A stretch of 64,000 nt of DNA from an uncultured Flavobacteriaceae bacterium (GTDB lineage Bacteria; Bacteroidota; Bacteroidia; Flavobacteriales; Flavobacteriaceae): the NCBI GenBank assembly GCA_947494695.1, contig CANLWB010000006.1:124001-188000 (forward strand), written 5' to 3'. The notes under the pieces were generated by a model. That model did not search any database. It was not told the DNA's origin and worked only from the letters and a program-made list of their open reading frames with translations. Shown in pieces: positions 37,409 to 61,091 of the stretch. Position 1 is the first letter of the stretch, and the number at the start of each line of letters is the position of its first letter. Made by a program: the position numbers and the translations under genes.

Positions 37409-38068
37409 ATGTCTCCTTCTACTTCCAAAGACTTGATTCTTTATTCAGAAATTAGCACTTTCCAGACATCCGATTTCTTGTCAACTCATTTTGAATTACT
37501 CAAACACTCTTTAAACTTTGGAAAACAAACATCGGTAACACAAAAATTTGTTCCCTATCATCGTCTTTTGGGTCGTGCTCTTTTATTACATGCGCTTCAA
37601 CTTTTAAACATAAAGGACTTTAACCTTAAACACATGACTTATAGCGAGATGGGAAAACCCCAATTAGAAACAAATCCATTAATTAATTTTAATATTTCCC
37701 ATAGCGAACAGATTGTTGTTTGCGCAGTAAGCCTAAATAATGTTGTTGGAATTGATATTGAAAAGGAAAAAACAATTGATATTTATAACTTTAAGGATCA
37801 TTTTTCAGATCATGAATGGGATCTTTTAAATTGCAGTTCCAATACTTCTCTTTTTTTTGACTTATGGACAAAAAAAGAGGCTTTGCTAAAAGCGCTTGGA
37901 CATGGATTATCTATTCCTCTTAAAGACATAGAGGTTTCCTCCAATAGACTTCATTGCAACAACGACATCTGGACATTTTCTAAATTGCATCTAATGCCTA
38001 ACTACTGTGTCCATTTTACTTGTAACAATGATGTCCCGTCTTTTGAGATTAAAAAGATGACATTCTAA
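37409..38068 (+). CDS. 4'-phosphopantetheinyl transferase (Sfp superfamily), stand-alone
   Basis: 219 residues, within the size range for Sfp-type enzymes. Catalytic motifs are intact: VVGIDIE with Asp116 and Glu118 (Mg2+ ligands) and FFDLWTKKEALLKALGHGL with Glu157 and the following Lys. INFNISHSEQ and the early RLLGRALL give the CoA-contact region. The enzyme moves phosphopantetheine from CoA to an ACP serine. The obvious client is Ser988 of the PksE-type synthase at 48523-54096, which lacks the C-terminal transferase domain found in known PksE proteins. The gene is convergent with the end of that operon. Confidence 0.93.
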   Translation: MSPSTSKDLILYSEISTFQTSDFLSTHFELLKHSLNFGKQTSVTQKFVPYHRLLGRALLLHALQLLNIKDFNLKHMTYSEMGKPQLETNPLINFNISHSEQIVVCAVSLNNVVGIDIEKEKTIDIYNFKDHFSDHEWDLLNCSSNTSLFFDLWTKKEALLKALGHGLSIPLKDIEVSSNRLHCNNDIWTFSKLHLMPNYCVHFTCNNDVPSFEIKKMTF

Positions 38069-38180
38069 TAAGCTTTCTGAAAAAATTTATTTCAATTTAA
38101 ATGTCCTTCTACTATTTCCCCCTCTGGTCTACCAATAGATCTGTACTTTTCTGAAATAACCTCTATATTTTGAATATACT

Positions 38181-38705
38181 CTATATGTTCTTTTTGATTA
38201 CGTTTATTAAGGTCTCTAATTCTTCCTGGTTTAAAACGCCATGTTTCATAAACTGTAATATCCCTTTTTTATCAAAAAATAAGACATGATACATATCTTC
38301 GCTTAAACCCCACAGGGTTTGTATCACTTTATTCTTATCTAATACAATTTTTAATGACTCATTATCACGTTCTCTTTTCTTTAGCTTCATCTTTACTGCA
38401 AAAAACGGTAGTTTTGTGGCCTCCAGGTTTGCAATGCCAAAGATTCTCATTTTCGAATCCTTAAAGGTTTCCTTAATTTTTTCTTCTACATGTACATTGT
38501 CTTTTTCGTTATCTGGATCTATATACATGACCACTGTTGGTTCTCCAACAATATCTTTTGTTTTCCATGCTTCTTTTGTTTTAAAAAAACCTCCGTTTTC
38601 CTCAGATAGTTGCGCAAAAGGCGCTTCTTTTCCTAGTTCTAAAAGCTCTTGCGCAAAAGCATTATTAATGAATCCTAAAAAAATAATTAGTGCGATTTTT
38701 TTCAT
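38181..38705 (-). CDS. YtfJ-like thioredoxin-fold periplasmic protein
   Basis: 174 residues with a signal peptide (NNAFAQ). The thioredoxin-like fold is suggested by GKEAPFAQL near the start, VGEPTVVMYIDPD in the centre and HVLFFDKKGILQFMKHGVLNQEELETLINVI at the end, which closely follows E. coli YtfJ. No CxxC motif exists, so it is not a disulfide reductase. It is the last gene of the long biosynthetic operon, 16 bases after the E1-like gene. Role unknown; handling of thiols or an exported product is possible. Confidence 0.75.
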   Translation of the reverse strand: MKKIALIIFLGFINNAFAQELLELGKEAPFAQLSEENGGFFKTKEAWKTKDIVGEPTVVMYIDPDNEKDNVHVEEKIKETFKDSKMRIFGIANLEATKLPFFAVKMKLKKRERDNESLKIVLDKNKVIQTLWGLSEDMYHVLFFDKKGILQFMKHGVLNQEELETLINVIKKNI

Positions 38706-38721
38706 TTTTTGATTTTTATAG

Positions 38722-39888
38722 TTATAGTGTACAAGTTTCTTCGTATTCTACATATTCTGGATACTCGGTCTCTTTGTTATTACAGTATTTACATGATGCA
38801 TCTTTTTGGACATCGAATATGTCGAATTCCCAATCGGCCGCATTATAAACCAATAGTTTTCCTGTTAATAATTCTCCGAAACCTATTATGATTTTTATGG
38901 TTTCTGTAGCACATAAAAGCCCTATCGTCCCTGGTAATACGCCCAATATTCCAGCTTCTGCACAAGATGGTGCCAATTCTGGTGGTGGAGGTGCTGGATA
39001 CAAACAACGGTAACAAGGAGATGTATCGTCCTTTGCAGGCCAAAATGTAGAAACCTGGCCTTCGAACTGAAATACAGAGCCATGCACATTAGGCACTTTA
39101 TGCTTTACACATGCATCATTAATTAAATAACGTGTATTAAAATTATCTGTTCCATCCAAAACCACATCGTAAGCACCAATGATATGATCCACATTTTCTC
39201 TAGTCAGTCTTTCTTCATAAGTGATGACATTAATGTCTGGATTTAACGCTTCCAATCGTTTTTTTGCTGAACCTACTTTAGATGTACCTACGCTATCATT
39301 GGTATGTAAAATTTGACGTTGAAGATTCGTTTTATCTACAATATCATCATCAATTATCGCTAATGTCCCAATACCTGCTGCCGCCAGGTATAAGGCTACT
39401 GGCGACCCTATTCCTCCTGCTCCCACAACTAAAACTTTACTATTCAGCAGTTTTATTTGCCCTTCTTCTCCTATTTCGGGGATTAATAAATGACGTTTAT
39501 AGCGTTCATAATCACTTTCGTTTAATGTTTCTGGCACTTCAAACGGTAAGCCGCTATCTTTCCAACCTTTAAAACCTCCTTGAACCGAGAATACATTTTC
39601 GTACCCCATCTGAACTAACGAATTCGCAGAAATCACCGAGCGATTGCCGCTAGCACATAGCAGAAAAATATCTTGCTCTTTATTTGTCACAATATGCTCT
39701 ATTTGCATTTCCAAAAGCCCTTTGGATAATCTAATTGCACCTGTTGGACTTCCGGACTTCACTTCATCTTTTTCTCGAATATCAATAAGCAAACTTTGAT
39801 GATTTTTATTCTCGTCGTGTGCTTTTCGTGCCTCAATCTCTTTTACCGTCGTATCTTTTAGATACTGTATGTGGTCTTTTATAGTCAT
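38722..39888 (-). CDS. moeB: MoeB/ThiF E1-like adenylyltransferase with N-terminal rhodanese domain
   Basis: 388 residues. Residues 1-115 are a rhodanese domain with active-site Cys78 in LLCASGNRS; from about 125 an E1-like domain follows with the nucleotide motif VVGAGGIGSPVALYLAAAG (Gly156), DDDIVDKTNLQRQ and DNFNTRYL, and a zinc site from Cys292/Cys295 and Cys366/Cys369. Such enzymes adenylate the C-terminal Gly of a MoaD/ThiS-like carrier and load sulfur on it. The rhodanese is at the N-terminus, the reverse of MoeZ-type proteins. The carrier is encoded at 43832-44116 in the same operon, which suggests sulfur delivery to the product, with molybdopterin synthesis as the alternative. Confidence 0.9.
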   Translation of the reverse strand: MTIKDHIQYLKDTTVKEIEARKAHDENKNHQSLLIDIREKDEVKSGSPTGAIRLSKGLLEMQIEHIVTNKEQDIFLLCASGNRSVISANSLVQMGYENVFSVQGGFKGWKDSGLPFEVPETLNESDYERYKRHLLIPEIGEEGQIKLLNSKVLVVGAGGIGSPVALYLAAAGIGTLAIIDDDIVDKTNLQRQILHTNDSVGTSKVGSAKKRLEALNPDINVITYEERLTRENVDHIIGAYDVVLDGTDNFNTRYLINDACVKHKVPNVHGSVFQFEGQVSTFWPAKDDTSPCYRCLYPAPPPPELAPSCAEAGILGVLPGTIGLLCATETIKIIIGFGELLTGKLLVYNAADWEFDIFDVQKDASCKYCNNKETEYPEYVEYEETCTL

Positions 39889-39899
39889 GCGATAAGGTT

Positions 39900-41045
39900 T
39901 TATTGGTTAGTTAATTGATGGCAAGCAAAACATTGATATGCTCTTTTAAAATCTTTTGAATCTATAAACGATTCCAGCTCTGGACGTTCCGTTTCTACTC
40001 CACCTTTTAAAGCTTTCCAATATGCTTTAATAGCGTCTACTTTATCCTTGCGTTCATAATATGTTTTATTATCCTTCCACACCTCTAAAACACTTGCTCT
40101 GGACACCTCTATGGAGTTTGCAGCAACATCTATCACATCTAAATATTGCTTTAATTCGTCTATTTGCTCATGACTTAGTGTTGGGTTATTTTTAAATAGC
40201 CAGTCTATCTTTTTTATGTTTAAATCCATACGGTACAAAGGCCCTATAATTTCTGTAATCTGTCCATCCAGACTTGGTACAGCTTCTGGTCCTAATCGTT
40301 CGTTTATTTGCTTTAGAAGTAAATCTAGTTTAGGATTATCAAACCTATTTAAGGGATCTTTGTAATTAGACATCGCCACTTGTGGGGCTAATAAATTCCA
40401 CACAGGCACCAATGTATAGTCATTTAATACGAGTTGGGTATAATCAATGATTAAATCGTGATTTTCATTATTGTTAATGTTACCATTGGATGCGCGTTGC
40501 TGTACTTGCTTTAATATGACATAAAAGCCATATGTTAAATCATTATACCCAGCAATATTTGTGGCTTCTTCTATGGCCTCTTCTGCATGACTCATCATGG
40601 CTTTTATTTCCTTCTGAATAAAATCTGGATCTTCAACAGGCACACCGCTATATACGCCTTCTTTCACGTCTCCTGTGATGTCTTTAAATGCTATGGTTTC
40701 TTCCAAATAAGCCCCTACGATACCTGTTATATAAAAGGAGTAATACATTTGTAACCTCCGCATTTGGTTTAAGTCGAAATTTGTGGTGAACTTCCCCTCG
40801 TTATACTGTTTTTCGTAATCCAGATAAACGAGTCTTAGATCATTGAAAAAAGCTGGCATGGCATTTACAATCTGTTCGTCTTCAAAGTTCAAGTTGTCAA
40901 AATACACGGGACGTATTTCGCTTAAAAATGATTTCAAACGAGGAGTTTCAAGCTCTGAATTACTTCCATCTGAATCGTCACTATGACATGAAAACAATAA
41001 AAAGGCTAGAACTGTGGCTAGAATTATGCTTTGTACTTTCATCAT
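39900..41045 (-). CDS. Lipoprotein with C-terminal c-type heme motif
   Basis: 381 residues. Signal peptide with lipobox LFSC, then an acidic Ser/Asp linker. The main body is mostly helical with no family I recognise. Close to the end, CFACH (Cys372, Cys375, His376) is a canonical heme-c attachment site, leaving only five residues after it. A covalently bound heme on an outer- or inner-membrane lipoprotein suggests electron transfer in the periplasm. The E1-like gene follows after 11 bases. Confidence 0.65.
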   Translation of the reverse strand: MMKVQSIILATVLAFLLFSCHSDDSDGSNSELETPRLKSFLSEIRPVYFDNLNFEDEQIVNAMPAFFNDLRLVYLDYEKQYNEGKFTTNFDLNQMRRLQMYYSFYITGIVGAYLEETIAFKDITGDVKEGVYSGVPVEDPDFIQKEIKAMMSHAEEAIEEATNIAGYNDLTYGFYVILKQVQQRASNGNINNNENHDLIIDYTQLVLNDYTLVPVWNLLAPQVAMSNYKDPLNRFDNPKLDLLLKQINERLGPEAVPSLDGQITEIIGPLYRMDLNIKKIDWLFKNNPTLSHEQIDELKQYLDVIDVAANSIEVSRASVLEVWKDNKTYYERKDKVDAIKAYWKALKGGVETERPELESFIDSKDFKRAYQCFACHQLTNQ

Positions 41046-41168
41046 GTTTTGTTTTATACAACAATTTTATTTTTAGTCTTTCTTTTCAATTACAATCTAT
41101 AGCACTACAATTTCAATTGATTAAAGATGGTCTCTAAGCCTATCCATAATGTCTTGTTATCTGATTTC

Positions 41169-42464
41169 CTAGAACCTCCAAATGGCTCCTAACATGAGCT
41201 GGTTATTTAATAGATTATTAAAACTGGATCTCTCTGCTCCTATATTGGCAATAAACACACTAAATAGTTCTAAATTATCCCATGTATTCCATTCTATTAA
41301 TGATGAAAACTGACTGCTTTGATCGTCGAAGGAATAGAAGTATCTCAAATTATAACTTAACTCTCCAAAGAGATCATTCTCACCAATCTGTGAAAACAGA
41401 TAATTTCTACGCAAATATGGCAATCCGGTGTTGGCAGCCCGACCTAGATTAAGATTAGACAAATCAAAAATTATATCGAAATTGCTTAATGATCCACTAA
41501 CTATTGTTTCGTTGTATAAATCAAAGGTTTTGTCATCATAGCCTTTTCCATTATAATAGTACTCTAGATTTAAAGTTGGTCCAAAACTAAAGGTGTATGA
41601 AGCTCCTAATAAGCCCGAAAAAAAGTACTTTTTATTTTCACTTCCATTCACCATTTCAAACGGCAAAAGCTCTGTACTATGCCCGTCTTGTGGATAAAAC
41701 CTATTTGGGTTGTAATTTATGGCTCCATCAAACCAAACCAGGGTCGCATCGCTTAGATTTCGTTGACCATAAAACCCTAAATGATAGCGTTTATCTTCGC
41801 TTATAGAAAGTATGGTTCCAATGGTTTGAGATTCACCGTAATATTCTGCTAATAGACCATGCTGCCTTTCAAAATTGAAAAAAGGAAATCCAAAGAGTTC
41901 TGCTTCGCCTTCATGTACATTTGAGATGAATGAAAAATCCCAATTCCCTTTTGTAAAGTTTAGTTCTACAAAATTCATGGGACGCAGTTCTATTTTAGGG
42001 TTTAATCGCCCAGATTCTAAGAAGTATGGATTACTTGGGTTTATATACACCGATGTTCCTATACTTTTTATATACTGACCTCCAGCCACATATAGAGCAT
42101 CATTTAGCTGTATTTTTAGTTTTGCTTGCTGGAAATAAAACTCGGTTTCCAATCCTTTTCCCTCACGCCAGTCTGTATTTAAACGAGGTTTTATAAACAT
42201 TGAAACAGCATGCTTTCTAAACTTGACATCGGGCCTTATATATACTCCAGCATTGTAATGATCTAACCCGGCAATTCTGTTTTGCGGGTTTATCCCTTCG
42301 GTAGATTCATCAAACTTGGTAATTCTTGTAAAGGGCAGTATATCTACAGACCAATCTACCTGCTTCATTAGAGCTTTAAATTTACTGTCCTCTTTTTCCT
42401 GAGTTTGTGCAAAGGCATTCCCCTCCAACATTAGCGCACATATAAGTGCTACTATTTTTTTCAT
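41169..42464 (-). CDS. Predicted outer-membrane beta-barrel protein, cluster-linked
   Basis: 431 residues. The signal peptide ends NAFAQ; a short charged stretch is followed by regularly alternating amphipathic strands (AGVYIRPDVKF, VSMFIKPRLN, TEFYFQQAKLKI) and the C-terminus LMLGAIWRF, the usual last strand of an outer-membrane barrel. No assigned family is obvious. It is encoded 35 bases after the LolA-like gene and with an ABC exporter further upstream, so it may be the outer-membrane exit or the cargo target of that system. Confidence 0.65.
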   Translation of the reverse strand: MKKIVALICALMLEGNAFAQTQEKEDSKFKALMKQVDWSVDILPFTRITKFDESTEGINPQNRIAGLDHYNAGVYIRPDVKFRKHAVSMFIKPRLNTDWREGKGLETEFYFQQAKLKIQLNDALYVAGGQYIKSIGTSVYINPSNPYFLESGRLNPKIELRPMNFVELNFTKGNWDFSFISNVHEGEAELFGFPFFNFERQHGLLAEYYGESQTIGTILSISEDKRYHLGFYGQRNLSDATLVWFDGAINYNPNRFYPQDGHSTELLPFEMVNGSENKKYFFSGLLGASYTFSFGPTLNLEYYYNGKGYDDKTFDLYNETIVSGSLSNFDIIFDLSNLNLGRAANTGLPYLRRNYLFSQIGENDLFGELSYNLRYFYSFDDQSSQFSSLIEWNTWDNLELFSVFIANIGAERSSFNNLLNNQLMLGAIWRF

Positions 42465-42499: not shown

Positions 42500-43264
42500 T
42501 TATTCTAACAAACTATTTTTTTGAAATTTAGCATTGCTAAAGTTTTTAAATGCTGGTTCTAAAATTTCTAGTATCGTTTTATCTTCGGTATTGATTTTAT
42601 CTACAATCGTAATTTTAGAGATGTATTTACATGGTTTTCCTTCAAAAGTTACATCGTTCTGATAATCGAAATACCCCGTTTTAATCAGTTTTCCAGATTT
42701 ACCAAAAAAGTCTGCTTTCAATCCAAAATTTTCGTCCTTTGATATCCAATAGTCTATTTTCGAATAACTCACTAAACTATTTTTTGCTACTAACTCGAGT
42801 TTCCAGCAGTCTTTTCCATCTAGAACTTCGCTTAATGTATTTTTTATATCGTAGTCTATAAAATAATTGGCTGCCGCTGCATCGGCATTGGCTGCCGAAC
42901 CAGATAAACGCTGTCTTCCGGAAATAGGAACTGGTCTTCTCATTCCTCTTTTAACAAACCACATATTATTACCTCTTAGTAGCAATCTTTGTCCGTTATA
43001 CTTTTTGGGTTTCAGGAAAGAGATTAGTGCAAATTGACTTTCTGAATTTGTCGTAGCCTCTACTTTTAGGTTTAATTTATTTCTCAAATTTCCCTCTTCT
43101 ATGTTTTGTACTTCTAAGTCCCAGGATATTCCAGGTACACGACCACCTCTATAAAAATCGGATTGTTTTAGTATCTCTTCAAAGTTTGGTTCTTTATTAA
43201 TTTCTTTAAATGATACTGAAACTAACCCAACGCATGTTAAAAATATTAATATTGTTTTTTTCAT
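42500..43264 (-). CDS. LolA-like periplasmic protein (outer-membrane lipoprotein-sorting family)
   Basis: 254 residues with an N-terminal signal-like segment. EEILKQSDFYRGGRVPGISWDLEV, FLKPKKYNGQRLLLRGNNMWFVKRGMRRPVPIS and GKDCWKLELVAKN are characteristic of the LolA-like group annotated as outer membrane lipoprotein-sorting proteins. These are often encoded near MMPL or MacB/LolCE-type exporters and probably carry a lipidic cargo across the periplasm. An ABC transporter of that kind is in the same operon (45916-47902). Confidence 0.8.
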   Translation of the reverse strand: MKKTILIFLTCVGLVSVSFKEINKEPNFEEILKQSDFYRGGRVPGISWDLEVQNIEEGNLRNKLNLKVEATTNSESQFALISFLKPKKYNGQRLLLRGNNMWFVKRGMRRPVPISGRQRLSGSAANADAAAANYFIDYDIKNTLSEVLDGKDCWKLELVAKNSLVSYSKIDYWISKDENFGLKADFFGKSGKLIKTGYFDYQNDVTFEGKPCKYISKITIVDKINTEDKTILEILEPAFKNFSNAKFQKNSLLE

Positions 43265-43290: not shown

Positions 43291-43755
43291 TTACAATTTA
43301 TAAAGGTAAAACCACAGTGTTAACAATAAGCCTAGAATACCACTGATGAAAGTACCGTAGGCCCTATAATTATAAAATTTATGCAAAGCATAAGCTTCTT
43401 TATCTGTTGCTAATTGCATTTTTGGCCAGGTTATAAAAGTTCCATAGAGTGTAAAAACCGTCATTACAGAAAGAAAAAAGAACTTTCCTATAATCATTTT
43501 TGTTTCCATACCGTTTTGAGGAGGGTGAACTATTAATAGTCCTATACCTGTAGCCCAGAGTTGAAATATACCGAAGTACACACTATAAAAGACACGTTTT
43601 CCTTGACCTATTATAAACCTAAAGGGGAATTTCCCTTTTTCTACACTTTCTTCTGCAGCGGGAGCATCTATGAATGCGCCCATAAAAACGGATCCTATCC
43701 AAATCGCTCCAGCAATGGCATGGAGTGATAACAAAATCTTTTCTGCTAATATCAT
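43291..43755 (-). CDS. CopD-like four-helix membrane protein
   Basis: 154 residues, four hydrophobic helices (about 5-27, 57-75, 88-107, 131-150). LSLHAIAGAIWIGSVFMGAF in the first helix is the CopD-superfamily signature, with His and Trp spaced as in family members thought to bind heme or copper. Together with the c-heme lipoprotein of the same operon it could form a small membrane redox path. Overall similarity is modest; DUF2269-type proteins are the alternative. Confidence 0.65.
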   Translation of the reverse strand: MILAEKILLSLHAIAGAIWIGSVFMGAFIDAPAAEESVEKGKFPFRFIIGQGKRVFYSVYFGIFQLWATGIGLLIVHPPQNGMETKMIIGKFFFLSVMTVFTLYGTFITWPKMQLATDKEAYALHKFYNYRAYGTFISGILGLLLTLWFYLYKL

Positions 43756-43831: not shown

Positions 43832-44116
43832 TTATCCTCCGGCACGAGAAAGTAAAAGTGTAACCTTCTCACCATTGGGTATTTCAGACTGCAACCCTTG
43901 AAGTGAATTAATATTTTTTTTACCTATATAAAAATTAATATAGGGTCTTAATTCTCCATTTTCATCAAAAAGCCGCTCTTTTATATGCCCAAAAGTATCT
44001 TCCAAATAGTTTATAAAATCGGAGAACTTCTCCCCTTTAAACTGTGCTGTTTTTTCATTATTAATGTGCACTGAAAACTGAGATGGGAACTTTAAGGTTA
44101 CGTTTGTTGTATTCAT
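43832..44116 (-). CDS. MoaD/ThiS-type sulfur-carrier protein with C-terminal Gly-Gly
   Basis: 94 residues with the beta-grasp pattern: VTLKFPSQFSV, KFSDFINYLEDTFGHIKERL, LRPYINFYIGKKNI, then NGEKVTLLLSRAGG. The terminal Gly93-Gly94 is free, as needed for adenylation and thiocarboxylate formation. The LRPYINFYIG..INSLQGL segment is nearer to CysO/MoaD2-type carriers than to short MoaD. Its likely activating enzyme is the MoeB-rhodanese at 38722-39888. CysO-like carriers have been shown to supply sulfur in some natural-product pathways (BE-7585A). Here the acceptor is not known. Confidence 0.88.
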   Translation of the reverse strand: MNTTNVTLKFPSQFSVHINNEKTAQFKGEKFSDFINYLEDTFGHIKERLFDENGELRPYINFYIGKKNINSLQGLQSEIPNGEKVTLLLSRAGG

Positions 44117-44157: not shown

Positions 44158-45852
44158 TTAATAATTGGCGATTGCCCTTATATCTTGAATCGTCCCAACA
44201 CCACCGTGGGTACTAATTATTATTTGGACATCTAATTGTTGTTCTTTTATAAACTTTAGTACAAATTGTGATCGTTTTTTTAGCGACTGTTTAATAGGCT
44301 CGGCAAACTGTCCCATGGTCTTATTATGAAACACATTTTCAGCAAAACCTGAATAGTAAAAATCTGTTTGGATAAGTGTTTTATCTTTGGGAATGTATAC
44401 TGCTACTAAATCTTCCGAGTGCGGGTTATTAGATGTATCGTCATGACTAAAATCGTAAATTATAATCTCGTTATCTCCAATAATTTCTTTTTCATCAATA
44501 GGGTGAATAACATTCGTTTTGGTTGAACTGGCGTAAGCGTCTGGATGAAGTGTATGCTTAGATTCTAAAACATTTTCAACAAACGATTGTCCTGATTTAC
44601 CAACATAAATGTGTTCCATATTTGCCGCAAATTCTCGAATTCCCGAAATATGTGTTCCATGTGTATGTGTGGGTATAACTCCCATAAGTGTTTCATTAGG
44701 GAACACATTTTTAGCAACATTAATAATTCCTTTTGCCCATGTATTATTAATTGGAGCATCTACAAAATACACCCCTTTTGAGGTCTTAATAGCAACACCC
44801 CAAATAGTCACATCTGGTCTTCCTATAATTTTTATATGATCACTTACTTTTTGGCTCTTTAAGTTAAACTGAGATAAATCTGCTCGCTCTAATAAAAAGG
44901 CCGTTGACAAATCTTGATCTAACGTTAAATGCATATAAAACATGCGTTGATACCATTGCGAGAACATATATCCTTTCTTAGCATTCGCCTCGTTATAGGT
45001 TAATTCGGTGTCTAAATTTGGTAACGTAAAACTATCGTCACTTAGTGAACCGTTTATTTTTATATTGGTAATTGTTTCTTCTCTTAGAACGTCATTTTTA
45101 AATGTATGGGTTATATGTTTTGGATATTTGGTACTTCCTACTGACTCCCAATTAGCGTAATTTACCGTAAAAGAAGTATCTCCAAACATAAAATCAGATT
45201 CTAAGACCGTTGCTTTTTCTGGCAACTTAGTTTTGGGATTTACCTCTAATTTTATTTTTAAACCGTCAATAATTGTTGATAATTCAAAAACTCCATTTTC
45301 TACTTTTGTGGTAACATCTGTAGTTTGAGACAATGCCTTAATTAATGCTAATGGATTACTCATTAACTGTACTTTTAGAAGGGCTTCCATACGAGCCGAA
45401 CTTAAAGGTACCTTTCTGTTAAATCCCAGATATATTGAACCAAAATTATATTCTCCTTCAAGACTCCCTTTTTTGTTATCTATGATAACTTGAGTTTTGG
45501 GAGAATTATATGTAAAGGGAAACAAGGCTAAATTTTTCGTATAATTTATATTCAGTTTCCTTTCGCCTATTAAAGAAATTAAGTCGTAGCTATATTGATT
45601 AATCTGGTGTTCTTCGGCTTGGTTTGGTCCATCTTGCTCATGCTCATATGCGGTTCCAGTGCTAGTATAACTAATGTTTTCTAATTTTTTAATAACATCT
45701 ATCCCTCCCAGGTTGTCTATAACAGATTGCAATGTTACTGTATAACTACCGGTATCGGCATCATCTGTTTTGCATGAAAAACATGTTCCGATAAAAAAGA
45801 CTACCAGCATATTAAAACTGCTAATCCTTTTAATGACTTTTAATGATTTCAT
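44158..45852 (-). CDS. Metallo-beta-lactamase-fold lipoprotein
   Basis: 564 residues. Lipobox CFSC near residue 27; an N-terminal beta-rich region of about 290 residues; then an MBL-fold domain (about 330-564). The metal motif HxHxDH appears as H396-T-H398-G-T400-H401, so the Asp has become Thr. SHDDTSNNPHSEDLVAVYIP and IIISTHGG supply later metal-binding candidates. Proteins of this group include hydrolases and sulfatases; the Asp change may leave only one metal site. It is co-transcribed with the ABC transporter. The role could be product tailoring, release or resistance. Confidence 0.75.
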   Translation of the reverse strand: MKSLKVIKRISSFNMLVVFFIGTCFSCKTDDADTGSYTVTLQSVIDNLGGIDVIKKLENISYTSTGTAYEHEQDGPNQAEEHQINQYSYDLISLIGERKLNINYTKNLALFPFTYNSPKTQVIIDNKKGSLEGEYNFGSIYLGFNRKVPLSSARMEALLKVQLMSNPLALIKALSQTTDVTTKVENGVFELSTIIDGLKIKLEVNPKTKLPEKATVLESDFMFGDTSFTVNYANWESVGSTKYPKHITHTFKNDVLREETITNIKINGSLSDDSFTLPNLDTELTYNEANAKKGYMFSQWYQRMFYMHLTLDQDLSTAFLLERADLSQFNLKSQKVSDHIKIIGRPDVTIWGVAIKTSKGVYFVDAPINNTWAKGIINVAKNVFPNETLMGVIPTHTHGTHISGIREFAANMEHIYVGKSGQSFVENVLESKHTLHPDAYASSTKTNVIHPIDEKEIIGDNEIIIYDFSHDDTSNNPHSEDLVAVYIPKDKTLIQTDFYYSGFAENVFHNKTMGQFAEPIKQSLKKRSQFVLKFIKEQQLDVQIIISTHGGVGTIQDIRAIANY

Positions 45853-47163: not shown

Positions 47164-47173
47164 TGTTATCTGT

Positions 47174-47902
47174 TTATGCGTTGATTGTTTCTACTTTTGA
47201 TTTTAGTATGGCGGTTTCTGTGTTTACAATTTCACCATCTTGCAAGGTCACAACAGAGTCTACATTGTCTATGACCTTATAATCATGAGAAGAGAAAATA
47301 AACGTTGTTTTTTTGGTCTCGTTTAGCTCCTTCATAAGATTTATAATATCCATACCCGTTTTACTATCTAATGCAGCGGTAGGTTCATCAGCTATTACAA
47401 TTTCTGGATTTGTAACTAGTGCTCTTGCTATGGCTACTCGTTGTTTTTGACCTCCACTTAAATTATTTGGTCTATGATTGAGGTGTGCTTCTAACCCCAC
47501 TTCTTTTAAGAGCTCTGAAGCTCTTTGCAAGCTTTCCTTTTTAGAAATTTTATTTATTTGCAGAGGAAAAGCCACATTTTCTACAGCACTTAGTACAGGA
47601 ATTAAGTTGTAATTCTGAAACACAATTCCTATTTTTTTATTTCTAAAACTTGTTATTTCATTATCGGTAAGCTCTCTAACCTTTACATCCCCATAAATAA
47701 TTTCGCCTTTGGTCGGTTCGTCTATCATGGAGATTAAATTTAATAACGAACTTTTTCCACTTCCCGACGGCCCTGCTATGGCTATAAAATCACCATGAAA
47801 AATTGAAAAATTGATATTCTTCAATGCCTCAACCCTCTGGGTGCCTAAAAAATATGTTTTATATATGTTATTTAACTCTATTAAAGTTTTGGGTCTACTC
47901 AT
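47174..47902 (-). CDS. ABC transporter ATP-binding protein, LolD/MacB type
   Basis: 242 residues. Walker A GPSGSGKSS (about 44-52), Q-loop VFQNYNLIPVLSAVENV, signature LSGGQKQRVAIARALV, Walker B EIVIADEPTAALD and H-loop SSHDYKV are all intact. Size and motifs are those of the LolD/MacB/SalX group. It forms a transporter with the permease that follows after 10 bases. A 140-base gap precedes it, the longest inside the operon, so an internal promoter is possible. Confidence 0.95.
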   Translation of the reverse strand: MSRPKTLIELNNIYKTYFLGTQRVEALKNINFSIFHGDFIAIAGPSGSGKSSLLNLISMIDEPTKGEIIYGDVKVRELTDNEITSFRNKKIGIVFQNYNLIPVLSAVENVAFPLQINKISKKESLQRASELLKEVGLEAHLNHRPNNLSGGQKQRVAIARALVTNPEIVIADEPTAALDSKTGMDIINLMKELNETKKTTFIFSSHDYKVIDNVDSVVTLQDGEIVNTETAILKSKVETINA

Positions 47903-54136: not shown

Positions 54137-56860
54137 CTACAAATTTTCCTTCCAACTAGTCACCCCTTCACCTTTTGTAATCGTAATTATTCCATTTGCT
54201 TTCGAGTCTAATTTGATTTCTTCAACAGTTCGATCCTTATCGGGCCATTCAATTTTTATGGTCTCTGCTTTTTTGTTTCCTAATCCAAAATGTAAATCTC
54301 CACAGTAATTAGATAAGAATCCCCCTCCTCCAGCACGATTAACCATTAAATTATCACTGTTAACAAACACTTTAGCACCTACGCCATTTGTATTAAAAGA
54401 GCCTGGAGTATTATCTACTAACCTTACTTTTATATAATTACTCCCTTTATGCGTATTTATAAAAACTCTGGAGTCTCCAGGCTCGAAGTTTGTTGGTGTT
54501 GGAAAATTAGCATCGTGCGCTGGCAACACACTTACCTTTCCATTGATTTTTGCTTTTAAGTTTACTCCGGTTGATTTTCTTGAATCGTAACCACCAATAT
54601 TTCTTAACACGATATCTTGATACCCATCATTATTAATATCGGCTGCAACAACAGAACGTCCTTCTTCTGCTAATTGAATCATGGATCTGTTAGACACTTT
54701 TTGAAGTACATCCGGCCCTTGTAACCCCCACACATCCAAATCATAACTATACACCATACTCCGTTTTCCCCAATTTTTAGTTGGTGATTTACGATAAATA
54801 TGGCCTTCGTCTTCTAACTTGTCATACTTCATTTCTAAAATATTAAACACGTTATATTCTGCTGTAAGATCTTTAAAATTGACTTTTTCGCCTTTATCTG
54901 TAGCATTTACTAACAGACGTCCTGGACCTGTACCCATTATTGGAAAAATGCCACCTCCTGATCCCCATAGGCATCCTATCCAATACAAATCTTTCCTACC
55001 ATCATTTTGAACATCTAATGTGGTTGATCCCCAAGCAAATTCGTAGGGATCTAAACTATTGATGTCGTAAGGCACATGGCGCCCTCCTGGTATAAACGGA
55101 CGTACATTATTTGGTAATGCAGCATCTGGAGGTAATATTTTAGAGTGCTTAACTTTAGTTTCTAATTCCTTTTCAAAATCTTCTCCATCTATTACAGCAT
55201 GCATGGCTCGGTGGCGGTCTGAAAAATACTGCTGCGACATAGTTCCCACGGTCATTACGGGGTCTAAGATCATATTCGGATCCGGATAGGAGAATGCAAA
55301 ATTCATTGAAGATCCTCCTAAATTCCCTGCAAATACATCTTCTTTTTGATCGTTGTTAAAGTCTGCTGGTGAAAAGGTCATCCAATACCCTGACTTATCT
55401 GATCGCGCGTATTTTTCAGGTTGTATAAAGCCTTTTCCTTTATCATTAATATATAAACGAAGCCATCCTAAATCGTTTGCTACCCATATATCTGGATACC
55501 CATCATGGTTTACGTCTTGTGTTACGGAAGACCATGATAATTGTCCGTGTTCTGACTCTTGATTATTAATTGTTAACCATCCTGGTTTGTAAGCTTCAAA
55601 ACTCATAAAGGCTAACGAATATTCTTTTGGCAGTATTGGTAATTTACGAACACGGTAGTAATCTGGCATAGGGTTACCCTCGTCGTAAATACCATCAACA
55701 TTCATTTCCGAAGATTTCTCAATAAAGGTTAACTTTCCTGTTTCCGATAATTGATTTATATACAATTGGTTTGCCCCTCCTGAAAGTGCTTTTGCTCCTC
55801 CTGGCCAATAATCTTCATCCATGGCGTTTCCTTCGAAAATATCCAGGTCGCCATCTAAATCAAAATCTGCTGCTAAAATTGAAAATGTATTTCTTTTACC
55901 AGAAAGCCCTGTTTCTTTAGATACGTCTTTCCATTCGGGAATTCCATCATTATCCTTATCTCCCATATTGAGGAAAATCGTGTTAGCTCCGTAATACTCT
56001 TCTCCATGAGATGATTTTCTTTTATCGTTTGTATTATCTCTGGGTTGGTATCCTTTTATAAATCCTAACCCCTGACTCTTCATTGGCACCCGTACATTGT
56101 TAGCCTGACGTCCAACTGGACGTACAAATTGCCCTAAGATACGTTGTGTTTTTGGAGAAGACCATACCATGCCTTCCATACCGTTACCAACCAAAATATC
56201 TTGTAAACCATCACCATTAATATCTGCTGCAATGGCTGTTTGAGAATTTCTGCCTTTGCGCTTACGTGAATCTGTTAATTTTTCACGCGGAAACAAATAG
56301 TTTTCAATGAGCATTTCCTCCTTAACATAGGTATCATTTACTTGAGCTAATTCATCGACTTCTTTATAAATTGGATTACCAGCTTCATCATTTCCCATAT
56401 TTAGGTACAGAGCGTTGTATTGTAACCTTGGCTCATCCATTAAAACACCTTTTTCATCGGTTGGACGCACCCAATTATCCCCTGGATTTAAAAAATATGT
56501 ATCTAACTTATCATCTCCATTTGCATCAAAAATTAGTAGTCCGCAAGACCCGTATTGTCCGGCATAGGTTCCCCAATTTTTAGCATCATCATCAAAAAGT
56601 TCGACTTCTTTGAATGCTGAAGGCTTTTCTAATTTTACAAATTTACTTTCATCTAAAGGTTTGCTATTATTCTTAACAACATTAAGATATTTAACATCCT
56701 TACTAGCTTGATCTAATTCTTCTCCAAATTTTGCTTCAACGTTAATGACTTGATTCACCTTAAACATAACGATGCTATGAAATATTACGGCAAATACAAC
56801 TAAGAACGTGATGCCCGCAAAGACTCTAAACTTAGTTTTTTTAAATAAACTTTTTTTCAT
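54137..56860 (-). CDS. unbV: UnbV/ASPIC-type FG-GAP repeat protein (CRTAC1-like), enediyne cassette
   Basis: 907 residues. One N-terminal helix (about 12-34, FRVFAGITFLVVFAVIFH) anchors or exports it. At least six FG-GAP/VCBS calcium loops occur, e.g. ADINGDGLQDILVG, ADFDLDGDLDIFEG, DVNHDGYPDIWVAND, ADINNDGYQDIV, making a beta-propeller. The C-terminal ASPIC/UnbV domain has NTNGVGAKVFV, NRAGGGGFLSNYCGDLHFGLG and IEWPD. UnbV proteins are conserved in enediyne warhead cassettes but their reaction is unsettled. The protein is longer than I expect for actinobacterial homologues, mainly between the repeats. Confidence 0.88.
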   Translation of the reverse strand: MKKSLFKKTKFRVFAGITFLVVFAVIFHSIVMFKVNQVINVEAKFGEELDQASKDVKYLNVVKNNSKPLDESKFVKLEKPSAFKEVELFDDDAKNWGTYAGQYGSCGLLIFDANGDDKLDTYFLNPGDNWVRPTDEKGVLMDEPRLQYNALYLNMGNDEAGNPIYKEVDELAQVNDTYVKEEMLIENYLFPREKLTDSRKRKGRNSQTAIAADINGDGLQDILVGNGMEGMVWSSPKTQRILGQFVRPVGRQANNVRVPMKSQGLGFIKGYQPRDNTNDKRKSSHGEEYYGANTIFLNMGDKDNDGIPEWKDVSKETGLSGKRNTFSILAADFDLDGDLDIFEGNAMDEDYWPGGAKALSGGANQLYINQLSETGKLTFIEKSSEMNVDGIYDEGNPMPDYYRVRKLPILPKEYSLAFMSFEAYKPGWLTINNQESEHGQLSWSSVTQDVNHDGYPDIWVANDLGWLRLYINDKGKGFIQPEKYARSDKSGYWMTFSPADFNNDQKEDVFAGNLGGSSMNFAFSYPDPNMILDPVMTVGTMSQQYFSDRHRAMHAVIDGEDFEKELETKVKHSKILPPDAALPNNVRPFIPGGRHVPYDINSLDPYEFAWGSTTLDVQNDGRKDLYWIGCLWGSGGGIFPIMGTGPGRLLVNATDKGEKVNFKDLTAEYNVFNILEMKYDKLEDEGHIYRKSPTKNWGKRSMVYSYDLDVWGLQGPDVLQKVSNRSMIQLAEEGRSVVAADINNDGYQDIVLRNIGGYDSRKSTGVNLKAKINGKVSVLPAHDANFPTPTNFEPGDSRVFINTHKGSNYIKVRLVDNTPGSFNTNGVGAKVFVNSDNLMVNRAGGGGFLSNYCGDLHFGLGNKKAETIKIEWPDKDRTVEEIKLDSKANGIITITKGEGVTSWKENL

Positions 56861-56877
56861 TACTGTAGTTATTAGTT

Positions 56878-58377
56878 TTATCTTAAATTATCATCTCTGT
56901 ATGAGAAGTATACTGGTGTTATGTATTTTTCTGTATGATCTACCTGTTCTTTCACTAAGGAAGGAGAAATAGGTACTCTGTATTTTACAATATCGGTGAT
57001 ACGTTCATAGGATGTAAAGGTGATATCCCAATGTGGATTTTTGTTGTTTGGAAAGCTTCTTATAAATACTTGCTCTAACCCTTCGCCATGGGAGTTTAAG
57101 GCATATAGTTTTCCATCGGCTCCTTCTTCTGCCAAATATGCAAAACTTGGATGGTACCCTTGATCTATTAAAAAACGTCTTCTCTCGGCAAAACCAGAAG
57201 CCGATAAAATACCTACTCCAAAACCATGTAAGGTATAATCTTCTTTTTGTACCAACAGGTTTAACGGTAGGTTTCCTAGTATAATTTTCTTATTGTTTGG
57301 ATACTTAAAATGTAATTCGATGTATTTAAAATCGTCCTTTGTTTTGATATCACTTTCGGAGTTAAAATCATAACGCGTATAAGGTTCTACTTCGAAAACC
57401 TCAACACTTAAAGGCTCTTTATAGATACTAAAATCGAATGTCATTTTGTCGTTAACAGAATAGATTCCCGGCTCTATGAACTTAGACATTTTCACCTTTC
57501 TATCTAAGATATCGTATAGTGAGTCTGGTCGCACAAATTCTCCTGCCTTATCGCAAGTAACAAACCCCTTTGATAGTTTTCTACGCGATCCCTGAGATGA
57601 ATAACTTACTTCTTCGTTTACTACTATTGGCGCACTACCTCCCAGAGGTTTTAACACTTTTCTTAATCTGGTTAGGTCAATCTCAACCTCTTCTTCTTTC
57701 CATACTAAAGCCTCTTTAACTACATCCTCTGGTAAGTTATTTACCTCAGCAGTAATCTTGTAGTATTCGTCTTTTGGAAAATTAAACCAGGCATGATAAA
57801 TCTCGCCTGTTTTATCACTTGCATTCATTTCCCAAAGTCCAGAAGACAGGCAATTATTAACGACGCTAAAGCGTATAGGCTTAAATTTGGGGTTGGGTAA
57901 AAATTTGTAATCATCAGATAACTTCCATGGAATCTCGGGAAGTAAACTCGTTTCGAAATGCGTAATCTTATCATTTTCTATTCCGTATGGAAAACTCAAT
58001 CCATTTCGAGAATATTCTGCCATCATGAGATTAAACAAATCGAACTTATCTGGTTCCTCTTTCAGCTTATAGTGTAACCGGGGTACTAAATAATTTAAAG
58101 GCAATTTTTTTACAGAAAAGTAATCCGTTCCACCATTAGAGATATCAAAATTAATATCTGCTTTTTTATCACTAGTAATCGAGATTGTAGACTTTTTTAT
58201 CTTTTCGAACCAATGATGGCCCCTTAAAAAAGACTGGGTTGATGGCGTATACAAATACCCTCCTTCAACAACTTCTTCTTTCGCAGAAACGATACTTACC
58301 AATAATTTTTTTTTATGCTCTTCACATGAACATAAAACAAGAATTGCTATCAAAAAAAATACTTTTTTTCTTAACAT
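56878..58377 (-). CDS. Lipoprotein of unknown function within the PKS cassette
   Basis: 499 residues. Lipobox LCSC at about 15-18. The rest is beta-rich with no motif I recognise. Features seen: WFNFPKDEYYKI, VEIDLTRLRKVLKPLGGSAPIVV, ELHFKYPNNKKIILGNLPLNLLVQ, and a C-terminal YLAEEGADGKLYALNSHGEGLEQVFIRSF. It lies 17 bases upstream of unbV and 38 bases downstream of unbL, so it belongs to the core cassette. It has no counterpart that I know in actinobacterial enediyne clusters. Periplasmic assistance to UnbV is a guess. Confidence 0.6.
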   Translation of the reverse strand: MLRKKVFFLIAILVLCSCEEHKKKLLVSIVSAKEEVVEGGYLYTPSTQSFLRGHHWFEKIKKSTISITSDKKADINFDISNGGTDYFSVKKLPLNYLVPRLHYKLKEEPDKFDLFNLMMAEYSRNGLSFPYGIENDKITHFETSLLPEIPWKLSDDYKFLPNPKFKPIRFSVVNNCLSSGLWEMNASDKTGEIYHAWFNFPKDEYYKITAEVNNLPEDVVKEALVWKEEEVEIDLTRLRKVLKPLGGSAPIVVNEEVSYSSQGSRRKLSKGFVTCDKAGEFVRPDSLYDILDRKVKMSKFIEPGIYSVNDKMTFDFSIYKEPLSVEVFEVEPYTRYDFNSESDIKTKDDFKYIELHFKYPNNKKIILGNLPLNLLVQKEDYTLHGFGVGILSASGFAERRRFLIDQGYHPSFAYLAEEGADGKLYALNSHGEGLEQVFIRSFPNNKNPHWDITFTSYERITDIVKYRVPISPSLVKEQVDHTEKYITPVYFSYRDDNLR

Positions 58378-58415
58378 TATTATTAATTTTTAGATGTGTT
58401 ATACGTTGATTTATT

Positions 58416-59462
58416 TCAGATTGTATCTGTTACGAGTTTGTGTTCTTCCTGCTCATAGGAATGATTACCGTTTTTCGAGTTTACATGATTTAGCCACGCT
58501 CTAAGGTGGGATAGGAATACCTGAAAAGAAGGGGTACCATCTATACTTTTACTTCCTTGAAACTTATTCTTAAACTCTAAAGCTTTTTCGTGACATTTTA
58601 TGCCACTTGCGCCTGTTAGTATATTTATAGTTGAATCATCTTCATGGGGGTTACCCGCTGTATGTCTTGTATGTGCCGCTAGCAGTGCCCCTTGCGCTAA
58701 CATAATTTGATGCTCCCTGGAAGCTCTTTTTAATTCATGTATTTTTTCATTGGAAACGCCTCCGGCATAAGTAGCTGCCAAGCCTATTCCCGACCAGATA
58801 TTTGCCCTTCTTTTCTCTGGAAATGTATTTATAGTTTTTTGTATATTTTCGGGTTCACCAGAATTGTAAAACCATAAAGCTCGGCCTAAACCATTATCAA
58901 AACGCTCTAAATAAAAAGGGTTCGATTTTATCTTTCTGGGGACATAATATTTAGCTATTGTTTTCTTCGTTTTAAACATAGCATAATAAAAACCAACCCC
59001 ATCTAACACTAAAGAACCACTCATGGGGTCGATTTTATTCATAAGTTTTTCGTAGGACGCATTGAACACGCCACAGGTAAGCCCGGCTCCTATATAAGAC
59101 ATGTATTCATGCTTCTTATCCTTTTCTATGATATAGCTGACTAACAAATTTTTCTTTTTCAAAGAAACCAGGTCTAAAGCATACAAGCCCATGCCGATTC
59201 CTTCATGGAAGAAACCCGAAAGCTCTTTGGAAATACTTTGACTTATTGCCCTTAGATCATCATTTAAACCATTCTCGACAGTAGTATTATACCCATTTAC
59301 AACTGTTTTGGCTACCATTTCGAGTCTTGATTGCGCCTCGTAACCCTCTTCAAATTTTCTAACAGAAAAATTTGCTTCTTTTAAGGGCATGGCAAAAAAT
59401 TGTTTTCTTATTAGTTTTAAATTGTAAATCATATCTCTGTTATATTCAAGTTTAAAAAACAA
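58416..59462 (-). CDS. unbL: DUF1702/UnbL-family enediyne cassette protein
   Basis: 348 residues; Met11 (59432) is an alternative start. DUF1702 features are clear: GFFHEGIGMGLYALDLV, YIGAGLTCGVF, FDNGLGRALWFYNSGEPENI, RRANIWSGIGLAATYAGG, and a helical AQGALLAAHTRHTAG. This family is the UnbL/E3-type protein conserved next to PksE, thioesterase, UnbV and UnbU in enediyne clusters. Its biochemical role has not been settled. It is the first gene of the fifteen-gene minus-strand operon and faces the AraC-type regulator. Confidence 0.88.
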   Translation of the reverse strand: MFFKLEYNRDMIYNLKLIRKQFFAMPLKEANFSVRKFEEGYEAQSRLEMVAKTVVNGYNTTVENGLNDDLRAISQSISKELSGFFHEGIGMGLYALDLVSLKKKNLLVSYIIEKDKKHEYMSYIGAGLTCGVFNASYEKLMNKIDPMSGSLVLDGVGFYYAMFKTKKTIAKYYVPRKIKSNPFYLERFDNGLGRALWFYNSGEPENIQKTINTFPEKRRANIWSGIGLAATYAGGVSNEKIHELKRASREHQIMLAQGALLAAHTRHTAGNPHEDDSTINILTGASGIKCHEKALEFKNKFQGSKSIDGTPSFQVFLSHLRAWLNHVNSKNGNHSYEQEEHKLVTDTI

Positions 59463-59526
59463 TTGGATTTCACTTAAATGATAATTCGATTATGGAGCGA
59501 AACAAATTTTACCATAATTACTGAAT

Positions 59527-59542
59527 TACAACAATTGTTGTA
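59527..59542. promoter_or_regulatory. 16-bp perfect palindrome, operator candidate
   Basis: TACAACAATTGTTGTA is fully self-complementary. It lies 65 bases upstream of the first biosynthetic gene, in the 279-base spacer to the divergent regulator, a place suited to control of the PKS operon. Confidence 0.5.
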
Positions 59543-59573
59543 GACTGATTTTAAGAAAACTAGACCCAAATTC

Positions 59574-59594
59574 ATGATTCATCGGATGAATCAT
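59574..59594. promoter_or_regulatory. 21-bp palindrome, second operator candidate
   Basis: ATGATTCATC-G-GATGAATCAT is a perfect 10+1+10 palindrome, 32 bases from the first one. It is GC-richer than the spacer around it (mostly A/T), which argues for selection. No T-tract follows, so it is not a terminator. Confidence 0.5.
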
Positions 59595-59741
59595 TCCATA
59601 AATTGCATGTGATAAATCTTTACTTTTTATTTAATTCTCTCTATTTCTATTTAATAAATAAATTCCTACAAATTATTTTTATTTATAAGAAAAAACATCA
59701 TATTTGTTATCAAAATAAACCTTATTTGAACCCTATTTTTC

Positions 59742-61091
59742 ATGAATTTCCTTGAATCGATCAAAATATTAGAAATGATTACCCTAAATACAGTAGAAGA
59801 TTTAATTATTCTCACATTTATTATTATACAAGTGTGTGTATTTTTTATGCTAACTATTTTTTTATCACATAATGAAAACATTAGAACATCGGGTCTCTTT
59901 AAAAAGCTAATATTGGTTTTTATTGTTTATAACATCTTACATTTTCTGTTTCCTTCTGCCTCAATACCAGTAAAAGCATTCATCCAAAAAACCCTGTTAC
60001 TTTTTAGTTGTATTATCACTGCTATTTATTGTTTATGTTTTATTTATGAGCAATATCGAATTATACCTTCAAATTTTTTTAAAGTAAAAACCATATTGAG
60101 TTTTGTTTTAACTTTAATTGTTATTTTGTTCATCATTCCATTTTCGTTTTCATTTTCTTTTAAATATTCGGAAATTTTATTCTTTTCAACATCTACTATA
60201 ATCTTAATAGCATGTCTATTTAATGGTATCGTTCTTTTTAAAGAAGACTATAAGTATTCTGAAACTAGACATCATAAAATCATCATTCTACTTGGGGGTC
60301 TTGCTTTATTAATCTTAGCATCTATCCCGGCTTCGTTATTAATATTTAGCAGAAACACATTTACAGAAATTTTACTATTTAATTTTGGGTTTATCACATT
60401 GCTATCGTTATTTCTAAAACAGCAATCTTATATAAATAAGAACCAATCTGATTTATTACTCGAATATTTCAATCAAAAAGCATCCTTAAAGTTAACTGCT
60501 GAAAAAATAAATTACTTCAGTAATTTATATATCTTAAATTTTAACGAAAAGAACATTGTAAAAATGCTTTTAGAGGGAGCGTCTAAAGATATTATCTCAT
60601 CAAAGTTGAATATCTCTAAGGTATTATTAGAAAAGAACATCACTTCTATACATCGAAAAACAAAAACAGAGAACAATAACGATTTACGTCTACTCTTTTT
60701 TGTAAATAGAAAAAACTCAAATTCTAAAGACTTTTCATATAAAATCTTAAAGTGTTTAGAAGATTTTGAAAATAATAAGGATTTTTTAGATTCAAATTTA
60801 AACATGACCAATTTGGCTAAAAAAATGAATACCAATCCGAAGTATTTGTCTAAAACAATTAATGAATATAAGCGCTTAAATTTTAATAATTATATTAATA
60901 AATTAAGAATTGAGCATGCGTTGTCTTTATTAAAAGAAGAACCGAAATACAAAAACTATGCTATTAAACATTTAGCCAAAGAAGTTGGGTTTAACTATTC
61001 TGATGTTTTTTCTAAAGCTTTTAAAAATTTTACTGGCACATACCCATCTGAGTATATTAAAGATTTATGTCAACCAAAGTATACGCCTTAA
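59742..61091 (+). CDS. Membrane-bound regulator with LuxR-like and AraC-type helix-turn-helix regions
   Basis: 449 residues. About seven hydrophobic helices occupy 15-225. At about 268-320, NEKNIVKMLLEGASKDIISSKLNISKVLLEKNITSIHRKTKTE follows the LuxR/GerE pattern. The C-terminal AraC domain (about 345-445) has NMTNLAKKMNTNPKYLSKTINE and AIKHLAKEVGFNYSDVFSKAFKNFTGTYPSEY. The helices suggest sensing at the membrane. It is divergent from the biosynthetic operon, with two palindromes between, so it is its probable regulator. An internal Met at residue 12 is an alternative start. Confidence 0.85.
   Translation: MNFLESIKILEMITLNTVEDLIILTFIIIQVCVFFMLTIFLSHNENIRTSGLFKKLILVFIVYNILHFLFPSASIPVKAFIQKTLLLFSCIITAIYCLCFIYEQYRIIPSNFFKVKTILSFVLTLIVILFIIPFSFSFSFKYSEILFFSTSTIILIACLFNGIVLFKEDYKYSETRHHKIIILLGGLALLILASIPASLLIFSRNTFTEILLFNFGFITLLSLFLKQQSYINKNQSDLLLEYFNQKASLKLTAEKINYFSNLYILNFNEKNIVKMLLEGASKDIISSKLNISKVLLEKNITSIHRKTKTENNNDLRLLFFVNRKNSNSKDFSYKILKCLEDFENNKDFLDSNLNMTNLAKKMNTNPKYLSKTINEYKRLNFNNYINKLRIEHALSLLKEEPKYKNYAIKHLAKEVGFNYSDVFSKAFKNFTGTYPSEYIKDLCQPKYTP

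Follow-up and report, generated by a model that had tools for sequence, protein, structure and literature searches.

The window analysed here, a 64,000-nucleotide stretch of contig CANLWB010000006.1 from an uncultured Flavobacteriaceae bacterium with a genome of 5.49 Mb, carries a gene cluster built on an iterative polyketide synthase (PKS) of the enediyne lineage. The core enzyme is a true relative of the PKSs that start the biosynthesis of enediyne antitumour antibiotics; since two of the standard enediyne genes were not found and the cluster has its own genes for sulfur delivery and export, it probably makes something related but different. The probability that this is a dedicated biosynthesis-and-export cluster whose product is an exported, sulfur-bearing, polyene-derived lipid, and not a classical enediyne, is put at roughly 0.5. 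By sequence comparison, the PKS, its thioesterase (TE), a DUF1702 protein, an activating enzyme of E1 type, a sulfur carrier and an exporter can be assigned to their families, and these genes are conserved together in two genomes.

The cluster occupies the minus strand (38181-59462) and consists of 15 closely spaced genes, from the DUF1702 gene down to a YtfJ-like gene. The intergenic gaps are 10-140 bp and, judged by their size, are consistent with one or a few operons, where a sequence-only reading of this DNA had proposed a single one. This run is flanked by a phosphopantetheinyl transferase (PPTase) gene and an AraC-type regulator gene, both on the plus strand, and by a co-occurring porin gene. 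The host is taken to be a Flavivirga species, as its genus grouping includes the genome (G779) of Flavivirga jejuensis. In F. jejuensis, all 18 proteins, i.e., the 15 together with PPTase, regulator and porin, are found in the same order with 65-92% identity, which excludes a chance grouping. Among 12 genomes of the genus, the gene of a 499-amino acid (aa) lipoprotein and the porin gene each occur in two, the same two cluster carriers. The sequence-only reading had correctly located the PKS, TE, DUF1702 protein, ASPIC/FG-GAP protein, sulfur carrier, rhodanese-E1, ABC exporter and CxxCH lipoprotein.

Enediyne-type polyketide synthase, thioesterase and DUF1702 protein

The genes that link the cluster to the enediyne lineage, together with the PPTase gene, are the following.

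48523-54096, minus strand: PksE-type iterative PKS, 1857 aa, with ketosynthase (KS), acyltransferase (AT), acyl carrier protein (ACP), ketoreductase (KR) and dehydratase (DH) domains in the order KS-AT-ACP-KR-DH (KS, AT, KR and DH by Pfam; ACP by motif)
48043-48492, minus strand: enediyne-type (E10/TEBC) hot-dog thioesterase, 149 aa (PDB sequence matches)
58416-59432, minus strand: DUF1702 (E3/UnbL) protein, 338 aa (PF08012, 225.7 bits, cut-off 25)
37409-38068, plus strand: Sfp-type PPTase, 219 aa (PF01648, 54.7 bits; GIDIE and WTKKEALLK motifs; 65% identity in F. jejuensis)

The PKS is 34.4% identical over 1812 columns to SgcE, the PKS of the C-1027 cassette. Its active-site regions are intact, namely the KS Cys and two His, the AT GHSLG, the KR, and the DH His and Asp, so that the catalytic residues claimed from the sequence alone, as well as the motifs common to enediyne PKSs, are indeed present. 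The ACP is missed by Pfam; its LHLNS motif aligns with the LHMSS/LHLSS of actinobacterial enediyne-type PKSs, and the same LHLNS motif is found in the PKSs of another flavobacterial genome (G125) and of Sinorhizobium meliloti. In a KS tree of 20 rows, the KS of the window lies inside the enediyne clade with support of 100/100, apart from nine other PKS rows, of which six were picked by the NCBIfam PfaA model TIGR02813 and three by tblastn similarity, none being a product-proven polyunsaturated fatty acid (PUFA) synthase. Within the clade it is sister to the flavobacterial G125 KS (95/95). The tree, which lacks CalE8 and DynE8, contains a single enediyne row that we take to have a proven product, SgcE. 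Regarding plasmids, the best 30 of 1199 records matched by tblastn with the PKS belong to Streptomyces (29) and Nonomuraea (1), and the six fetched from these 30 all place the match in an enediyne-type cassette, by annotation or blastp. A scan of viral contigs with the PKS found no relative.

Considering that TIGR02813 gives the PKS 496.7 bits, it could be asked whether a PUFA-synthase-like or secondary-lipid PKS has been misread as enediyne-type. The cut-off of this model (1010.1) is far above the score, the KS groups with enediyne PKSs as expected from the sequence-only reading, and the TE and the DUF1702 protein are enediyne-type as well. Membership in the PUFA synthases was thus rejected, and such a misreading is highly improbable.

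One feature that the sequence-only reading did not mention concerns the end of the PKS. In the window as well as in F. jejuensis, the protein ends without a C-terminal region that is present in SgcE and that is presumably the integrated PPTase domain known in the enediyne PKS family. The nearby Sfp-type enzyme likely arms the PKS ACP, and its gene would replace the C-terminal region of the SgcE type.

The TE is 40% identical to SgcE10 and has the EETNLVGNIYF..WQGKCRE stretch of CalE7/DynE7-type proteins. It matches CalE7 (4.9e-29), the 'ACP-polyene thioesterase' 4i4j (1.1e-28) and DynE7 (1.4e-26). The top six PDB sequences comprise CalE7, the ACP-polyene thioesterase, two of DynE7 and two named just 'Thioesterase', and the seventh, a 4-hydroxybenzoyl-CoA thioesterase, drops to 7.5e-6.

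The DUF1702 protein aligns with an E3 profile in hhalign at 99.9% (1.2e-36, 308 columns), and in the comparison with E3, E4 and E5 profiles it matched E3 only. It is 28% identical over 320 columns to its counterpart in the C-1027 cassette. Its start is the ATG at 59432, common to F. jejuensis, while the listed open reading frame begins with a TTG at 59462. Carriers of DUF1702 number 2 of 397 genomes of the family, 2 of 395 of the phylum and 2 of 395 of the order; these samples overlap and the two are always the genome studied here and G125, F. jejuensis having been found by separate searches. Among plasmid records, 49 have a DUF1702 match, including one of S. meliloti T073. Trees of DUF1702 (9 rows) and of the TE (11 rows) are short and long-branched, cannot place the window and were not used. 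As a separate observation, a 15.9 kb Thiosymbion contig (L019:99-6794) shows a DUF1702 domain fused to TPR repeats, close to a TPR/FG-GAP protein, with no PKS among its ten scanned open reading frames; this pairing of DUF1702 and FG-GAP is possibly independent of enediynes.

The places of E4 and E5

The genes E3, E4, E5, E and E10 form a cassette common to the ten characterised enediyne clusters (PMC5181780). The sequence-only reading counted four of these five genes in the cluster. Three of them stand, namely E (the PKS), E10 (the TE) and E3 (DUF1702); the fourth, the gene taken for UnbV, is not E4 by sequence, and an E5 was looked for among the cluster genes without success. Between the E3 and E genes, in the positions that canonical cassettes give to E4 and E5, lie the genes of two other proteins.

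54137-56860, minus strand: ASPIC/FG-GAP protein with an N-terminal membrane anchor, 907 aa (PF07593, 38.3 bits)
56878-58377, minus strand: lipoprotein, 499 aa (no Pfam family even at E 10)

The 907-aa protein aligns with the E4 profile in hhalign over 70 columns only, and its matches to enediyne E4s are at 5e-5 (a 582-residue fragment) and 9e-5 (full protein), the best one, still weak, being the E4 of S. meliloti T073 (9.8e-7 over 117 aa). As a control, the eight other ASPIC proteins encoded in this genome all come closer to enediyne E4s (2.8e-14 to 6.8e-27). The protein, which has no more than the ASPIC/FG-GAP domains in common with E4, was therefore rejected as an E4 (UnbV) orthologue, so that of UnbV and UnbL as assignments to the enediyne cassette only the latter holds. 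By its sequence, it is a cluster-specific ASPIC protein: 295 other Bacteroidota genomes, scored for up to three candidates each, gave no relative at 1e-20. In the rest of the host genome, the check for relatives of E4 went through the ASPIC family only. An FG-GAP match from Alteromonas (2.95e-10, better than the E4s) was also discarded, as it lies near a PQQ-dependent dehydrogenase gene and neither a PKS nor DUF1702 is annotated in the 30 kb shown.

With regards to E5 (UnbU, NQR2/RnfD-like), no RnfD-type Pfam match was obtained among the cluster proteins, to which the search was confined. For the 499-aa lipoprotein, neither plasmid records (at 0.01) nor the profiles of E3, E4 and E5 gave a match; the same negative profile result holds for all eight cluster proteins compared besides DUF1702.

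In other loci both genes are kept: relatives of E4 (39-61% to SgcE4) and of E5 (46-74% to SgcE5) are found in Nonomuraea, S. clavuligerus, S. meliloti T073 and G125. The C-1027 cassette, on plasmid SGLP1 of Streptomyces globisporus, resembles the window in its PKS (34%, with common motifs), its TE (40%) and its DUF1702 protein (28%), whereas the window has no E5 that could be found, an ASPIC protein that is not E4-like, a PKS without the C-terminal region, and other accessory genes. The G125 cassette (L013:7421-17204, minus strand) comes from the same bacterial family, has the sister KS and a DUF1702 protein to which that of the window is 32% identical. Unlike the window, it has an E4 (39% to SgcE4) and an E5 (49% to SgcE5), its TE is fused to the C-terminus of the PKS, and no relatives of the sulfur and export genes of the window were found at 1e-3 in the 34 kb read. 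Downstream of the G125 cassette lie genes for a 2OG-Fe(II) oxygenase, an ABC1 kinase and a DUF6073 protein. The pSymA cassette of S. meliloti T073 (L040:13965-24084) is likewise in a Gram-negative host and has relatives of E3, E and E10. In contrast to the window, the cassette is complete and in order, with relatives of each of the five genes, and in the 28.9 kb compared nothing related to the other extra genes of the window was found at 1e-5.

These data bear on the possibility of a true Bacteroidota enediyne cluster making a nine- or ten-membered warhead, where the ASPIC protein would be E4 and either the 499-aa lipoprotein or a 154-aa membrane protein of the cluster would replace E5. The PKS, TE and DUF1702 protein are all enediyne-type, an ASPIC domain is present, and the order DUF1702, two proteins, PKS, TE mirrors E3-E4-E5-E-E10. 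Sulfur alone is no argument against an enediyne, because a sulfur-containing intermediate, a thiolactone iodoanthracene, has been reported in the dynemicin pathway (PMC8725005). However, E4 and E5 belong to the five common cassette genes (PMC5181780) and neither was found in the cluster. The cluster also lacks P450, flavin reductase and GMC oxidoreductase genes of the types that accompany four of the five annotated Streptomyces cassettes, although this is a weak point, as the fifth shows none nearby either and the gene tables are incomplete. A true enediyne cluster is accordingly regarded as unlikely.

Sulfur carrier, probable Lol-type export and remaining genes

Two genes of the cluster would activate sulfur.

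43832-44116, minus strand: CysO/Urm1-like sulfur carrier with an exposed C-terminal GG, 94 aa (PDB sequence matches)
38722-39888, minus strand: MoeB-type E1 adenylyltransferase with an N-terminal rhodanese domain, 388 aa (PF00899, 276.5 bits; PF00581, 55.6 bits)

The carrier matches PDB 3dwg_C (1.8e-9), which we take to be CysO, and 4n6e_B (4.3e-9), a 'ThiS/MoaD family protein' which is presumably the carrier of BE-7585A; against Pfam Urm1 it scores 17.3 bits, under the cut-off of 21.8. The E1 scores 547.1 bits against NF006444, over the cut-off of 449. The GG end of the carrier, as well as the rhodanese CxxGxR loop and two CxxC pairs of the E1, are kept in F. jejuensis. The two components of a CysO-type relay, namely a ubiquitin-like carrier with a GG end and an E1 to activate it, are thus present, and together they are predicted to form an E1-rhodanese/CysO-like sulfur relay. 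No carrier or E1 is listed in five annotated Streptomyces cassettes, within the stretches shown and with gene tables that are incomplete.

The 2-thiosugar BE-7585A is another natural product with a sulfur-carrier system of the CysO/MoeZ type. In the thioplatensimycin system (PMC6006322), as in the window, a ubiquitin-like carrier with a C-terminal GG goes together with an activating E1 homologue. There, the carrier machinery lies outside the cluster and is used by PtmA3/PtmU4, whereas the cluster of the window itself includes carrier and E1, and an acceptor pair of this kind was not recognised.

Alternatively, the product could be a polyene pigment or lipid free of sulfur, with E1 and carrier employed for molybdopterin, for cysteine or for the tagging of proteins. 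Ubiquitin-like carriers are known for such tagging as well, the E1 passes the MoeB cut-off, and genes for a CobW-type GTPase and a MogA-like molybdopterin protein lie directly beyond the regulator (61206-62689). However, a second MoeB-like protein is encoded elsewhere in the genome (C5:49291-50064, 48% identical over cluster-E1 residues 128-388), so that the household need is probably covered. A close copy of the cluster E1 (84%) is found only in the two cluster carriers, the other 10 of the 12 genus genomes having E1 relatives of at most 52%. Moreover, in F. jejuensis the E1 and carrier genes stay with the PKS genes, and no relatives of the CobW and MogA genes are found within the 7 kb read past the regulator. 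On balance, a sulfur-free product is considered doubtful. A genus-mate that lacks the cluster (G783, L101:3801-10844) has two ThiF-type E1 genes (36% and 54% to the cluster E1) together with a permease-like gene and two ABC ATPase genes, which may represent a different peptide or sulfur cluster.

Regarding export, the cluster contains a set of genes reminiscent of the Lol system.

47174-47902, minus strand: LolD-like ABC ATPase, 242 aa (PF00005, 126.3 bits; TIGR02211, 238.6 bits, under the cut-off of 307.75)
45916-47163, minus strand: FtsX/MacB-type ABC exporter permease, 415 aa (PF02687, 58.7 bits)
42500-43264, minus strand: LolA-like periplasmic carrier, 254 aa (PF17131, 105.3 bits)
41169-42464, minus strand: outer-membrane-type protein of the export module, 431 aa (weak relatives elsewhere)

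Weak relatives of the 431-aa protein (7.6e-4 to 2.2e-6) occur in 6 of 246 other Bacteroidota genomes. In the two of these six that were fetched, from another family of the phylum, relatives of ATPase, permease, LolA-like and 431-aa proteins lie close together (L099:9234-17821 and L100:3913-11157) and adjoin a KS and two SDR-like genes. Pfam searches at L099 confirm the LolA-like protein, the KS, one of the SDRs and a partial KS-like protein; between the ATPase and permease genes of this locus there is one additional open frame. Since the export module recurs beside KS/SDR-like genes in two genomes, export of a lipid-like polyketide is supported.

The remaining members and flanking genes are the following.

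38181-38705, minus strand: YtfJ-like protein with an apparent signal peptide, 174 aa (PF09695, 42.3 bits; hydrophobic N-terminus)
39900-41045, minus strand: lipoprotein with one C-terminal CxxCH haem site, 381 aa (CxxCH kept in F. jejuensis)
43291-43755, minus strand: membrane protein with four predicted hydrophobic stretches, 154 aa (hydropathy scan)
44158-45852, minus strand: lipoprotein with a DUF4292-like N-terminal part and a metallo-beta-lactamase-fold C-terminal part, 564 aa (HxHGTH motif kept in F. jejuensis)
36210-37343, minus strand: Porin_5-type outer-membrane protein, 377 aa, probable extra member (PF16930, 52.1 bits; 79% identity and same place in F. jejuensis)
59742-61091, plus strand: AraC-type regulator with a membrane N-terminal half, 449 aa (PF12833, 56.3 bits; seven hydrophobic stretches)

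The haem lipoprotein has no Pfam family at E 0.01, only unrelated matches below cut-off at E 10, and no plasmid match at 1e-3. The 154-aa membrane protein is at most weakly CopD-like (PF05425, E 0.016, 16 bits, cut-off 32.1). For the 564-aa lipoprotein, both matches are below cut-off (NCBIfam class B core, 2.3e-7; PF14125, E 0.0023), and its metallo-beta-lactamase-fold relatives in Bradyrhizobium and Methylosinus have no annotated neighbours resembling those in the window. Seven of the 15 minus-strand proteins (YtfJ-like, haem, LolA-like, metallo-beta-lactamase-fold, ASPIC, 499-aa and 431-aa) have a signal peptide, lipobox or membrane anchor, judged by eye or hydropathy, and a large part of the pathway thus seems to be oriented towards the periplasm. 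The AraC-type protein, which in F. jejuensis is found in the same place with 75% identity, is a candidate regulator of the cluster. The cluster seems bounded at this gene, as relatives of the CobW and MogA genes beyond it were not seen there in F. jejuensis. At the other end, a point absent from the sequence-only reading, the gene unit probably reaches to the porin.

Proposed pathway and relation to known systems

In the pathway that we infer, including every reaction, the sulfur target and the product, the Sfp-type enzyme would first arm the PKS ACP. Repeated extension with malonyl units by the KS, AT, KR and DH domains would then give a conjugated polyene, to be released by the E10-type thioesterase; pairs of enediyne PKS and thioesterase yield polyene in E. 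coli (PMC8725005). At the membrane, the DUF1702 protein may act on this polyene, with the 499-aa lipoprotein and the ASPIC/FG-GAP protein as extracytoplasmic partners. The rhodanese-E1 would adenylate the C-terminal GG of the carrier, leading to a thiocarboxylate from which sulfur would enter the product or an intermediate. Finally, the LolD/FtsX exporter, the LolA-like carrier and the outer-membrane proteins would transport the hydrophobic compound to the outer membrane or outside the cell. The best supported parts of this scheme are the predicted polyene synthesis and release (by family), DUF1702-dependent processing, sulfur activation and Lol-type export. Put forward more tentatively is the specific proposal that an unrelated extracytoplasmic pair has replaced E4 and E5 in a pathway of the enediyne-lineage PKS, that the thiocarboxylate carrier sulfurates the polyene or a polyene-derived ring, and that the compound, leaving by Lol-type export, represents a new chemical branch off the polyene that enediyne pathways have in common.

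Several points weigh against an exported, sulfur-bearing, polyene-derived lipid made by such a dedicated cluster. The gene set is carried by just two genomes of one genus, and few independent events therefore test its joint inheritance. Among the cluster genes, none was recognised as coding for a sulfur acceptor enzyme, and the E1, which exceeds the MoeB cut-off and has MogA/CobW-like genes nearby, could serve molybdopterin synthesis. In addition, the FG-GAP/ASPIC protein could still do the job of E4 after extreme divergence.

Enediyne-type KS domains have been linked to Bacteroidetes among other phyla (PMC10308959), and enediyne-type PKS or KS outside Actinobacteria have been reported from Herpetosiphon (PMC3368417) and Cyanobacteria (PMC4247773). 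The proposal that this type of cluster would be new to Bacteroidota was thus too strong, the more so since G125 has relatives of all five cassette genes. The excerpts of these three reports describe no sulfur relay or Lol-type export genes alongside the KS, and no published description of the gene combination of the window was found in the open-licence literature, which was searched in part.

To our knowledge, no chemistry has been assigned to E3, E4 or E5. The conversion of the linear polyene to the enediyne core is mostly unknown (PMC8725005). By keeping PKS, TE and E3 without recognisable E4 and E5, the cluster separates the roles of these proteins, and its product would show the action of E3 in the absence of the other two. 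Moreover, a sulfur carrier and its activating enzyme would here be integrated in a pathway of the enediyne lineage and, as the cluster occurs in a deposited strain, F. jejuensis KACC 14158, this pathway is testable.

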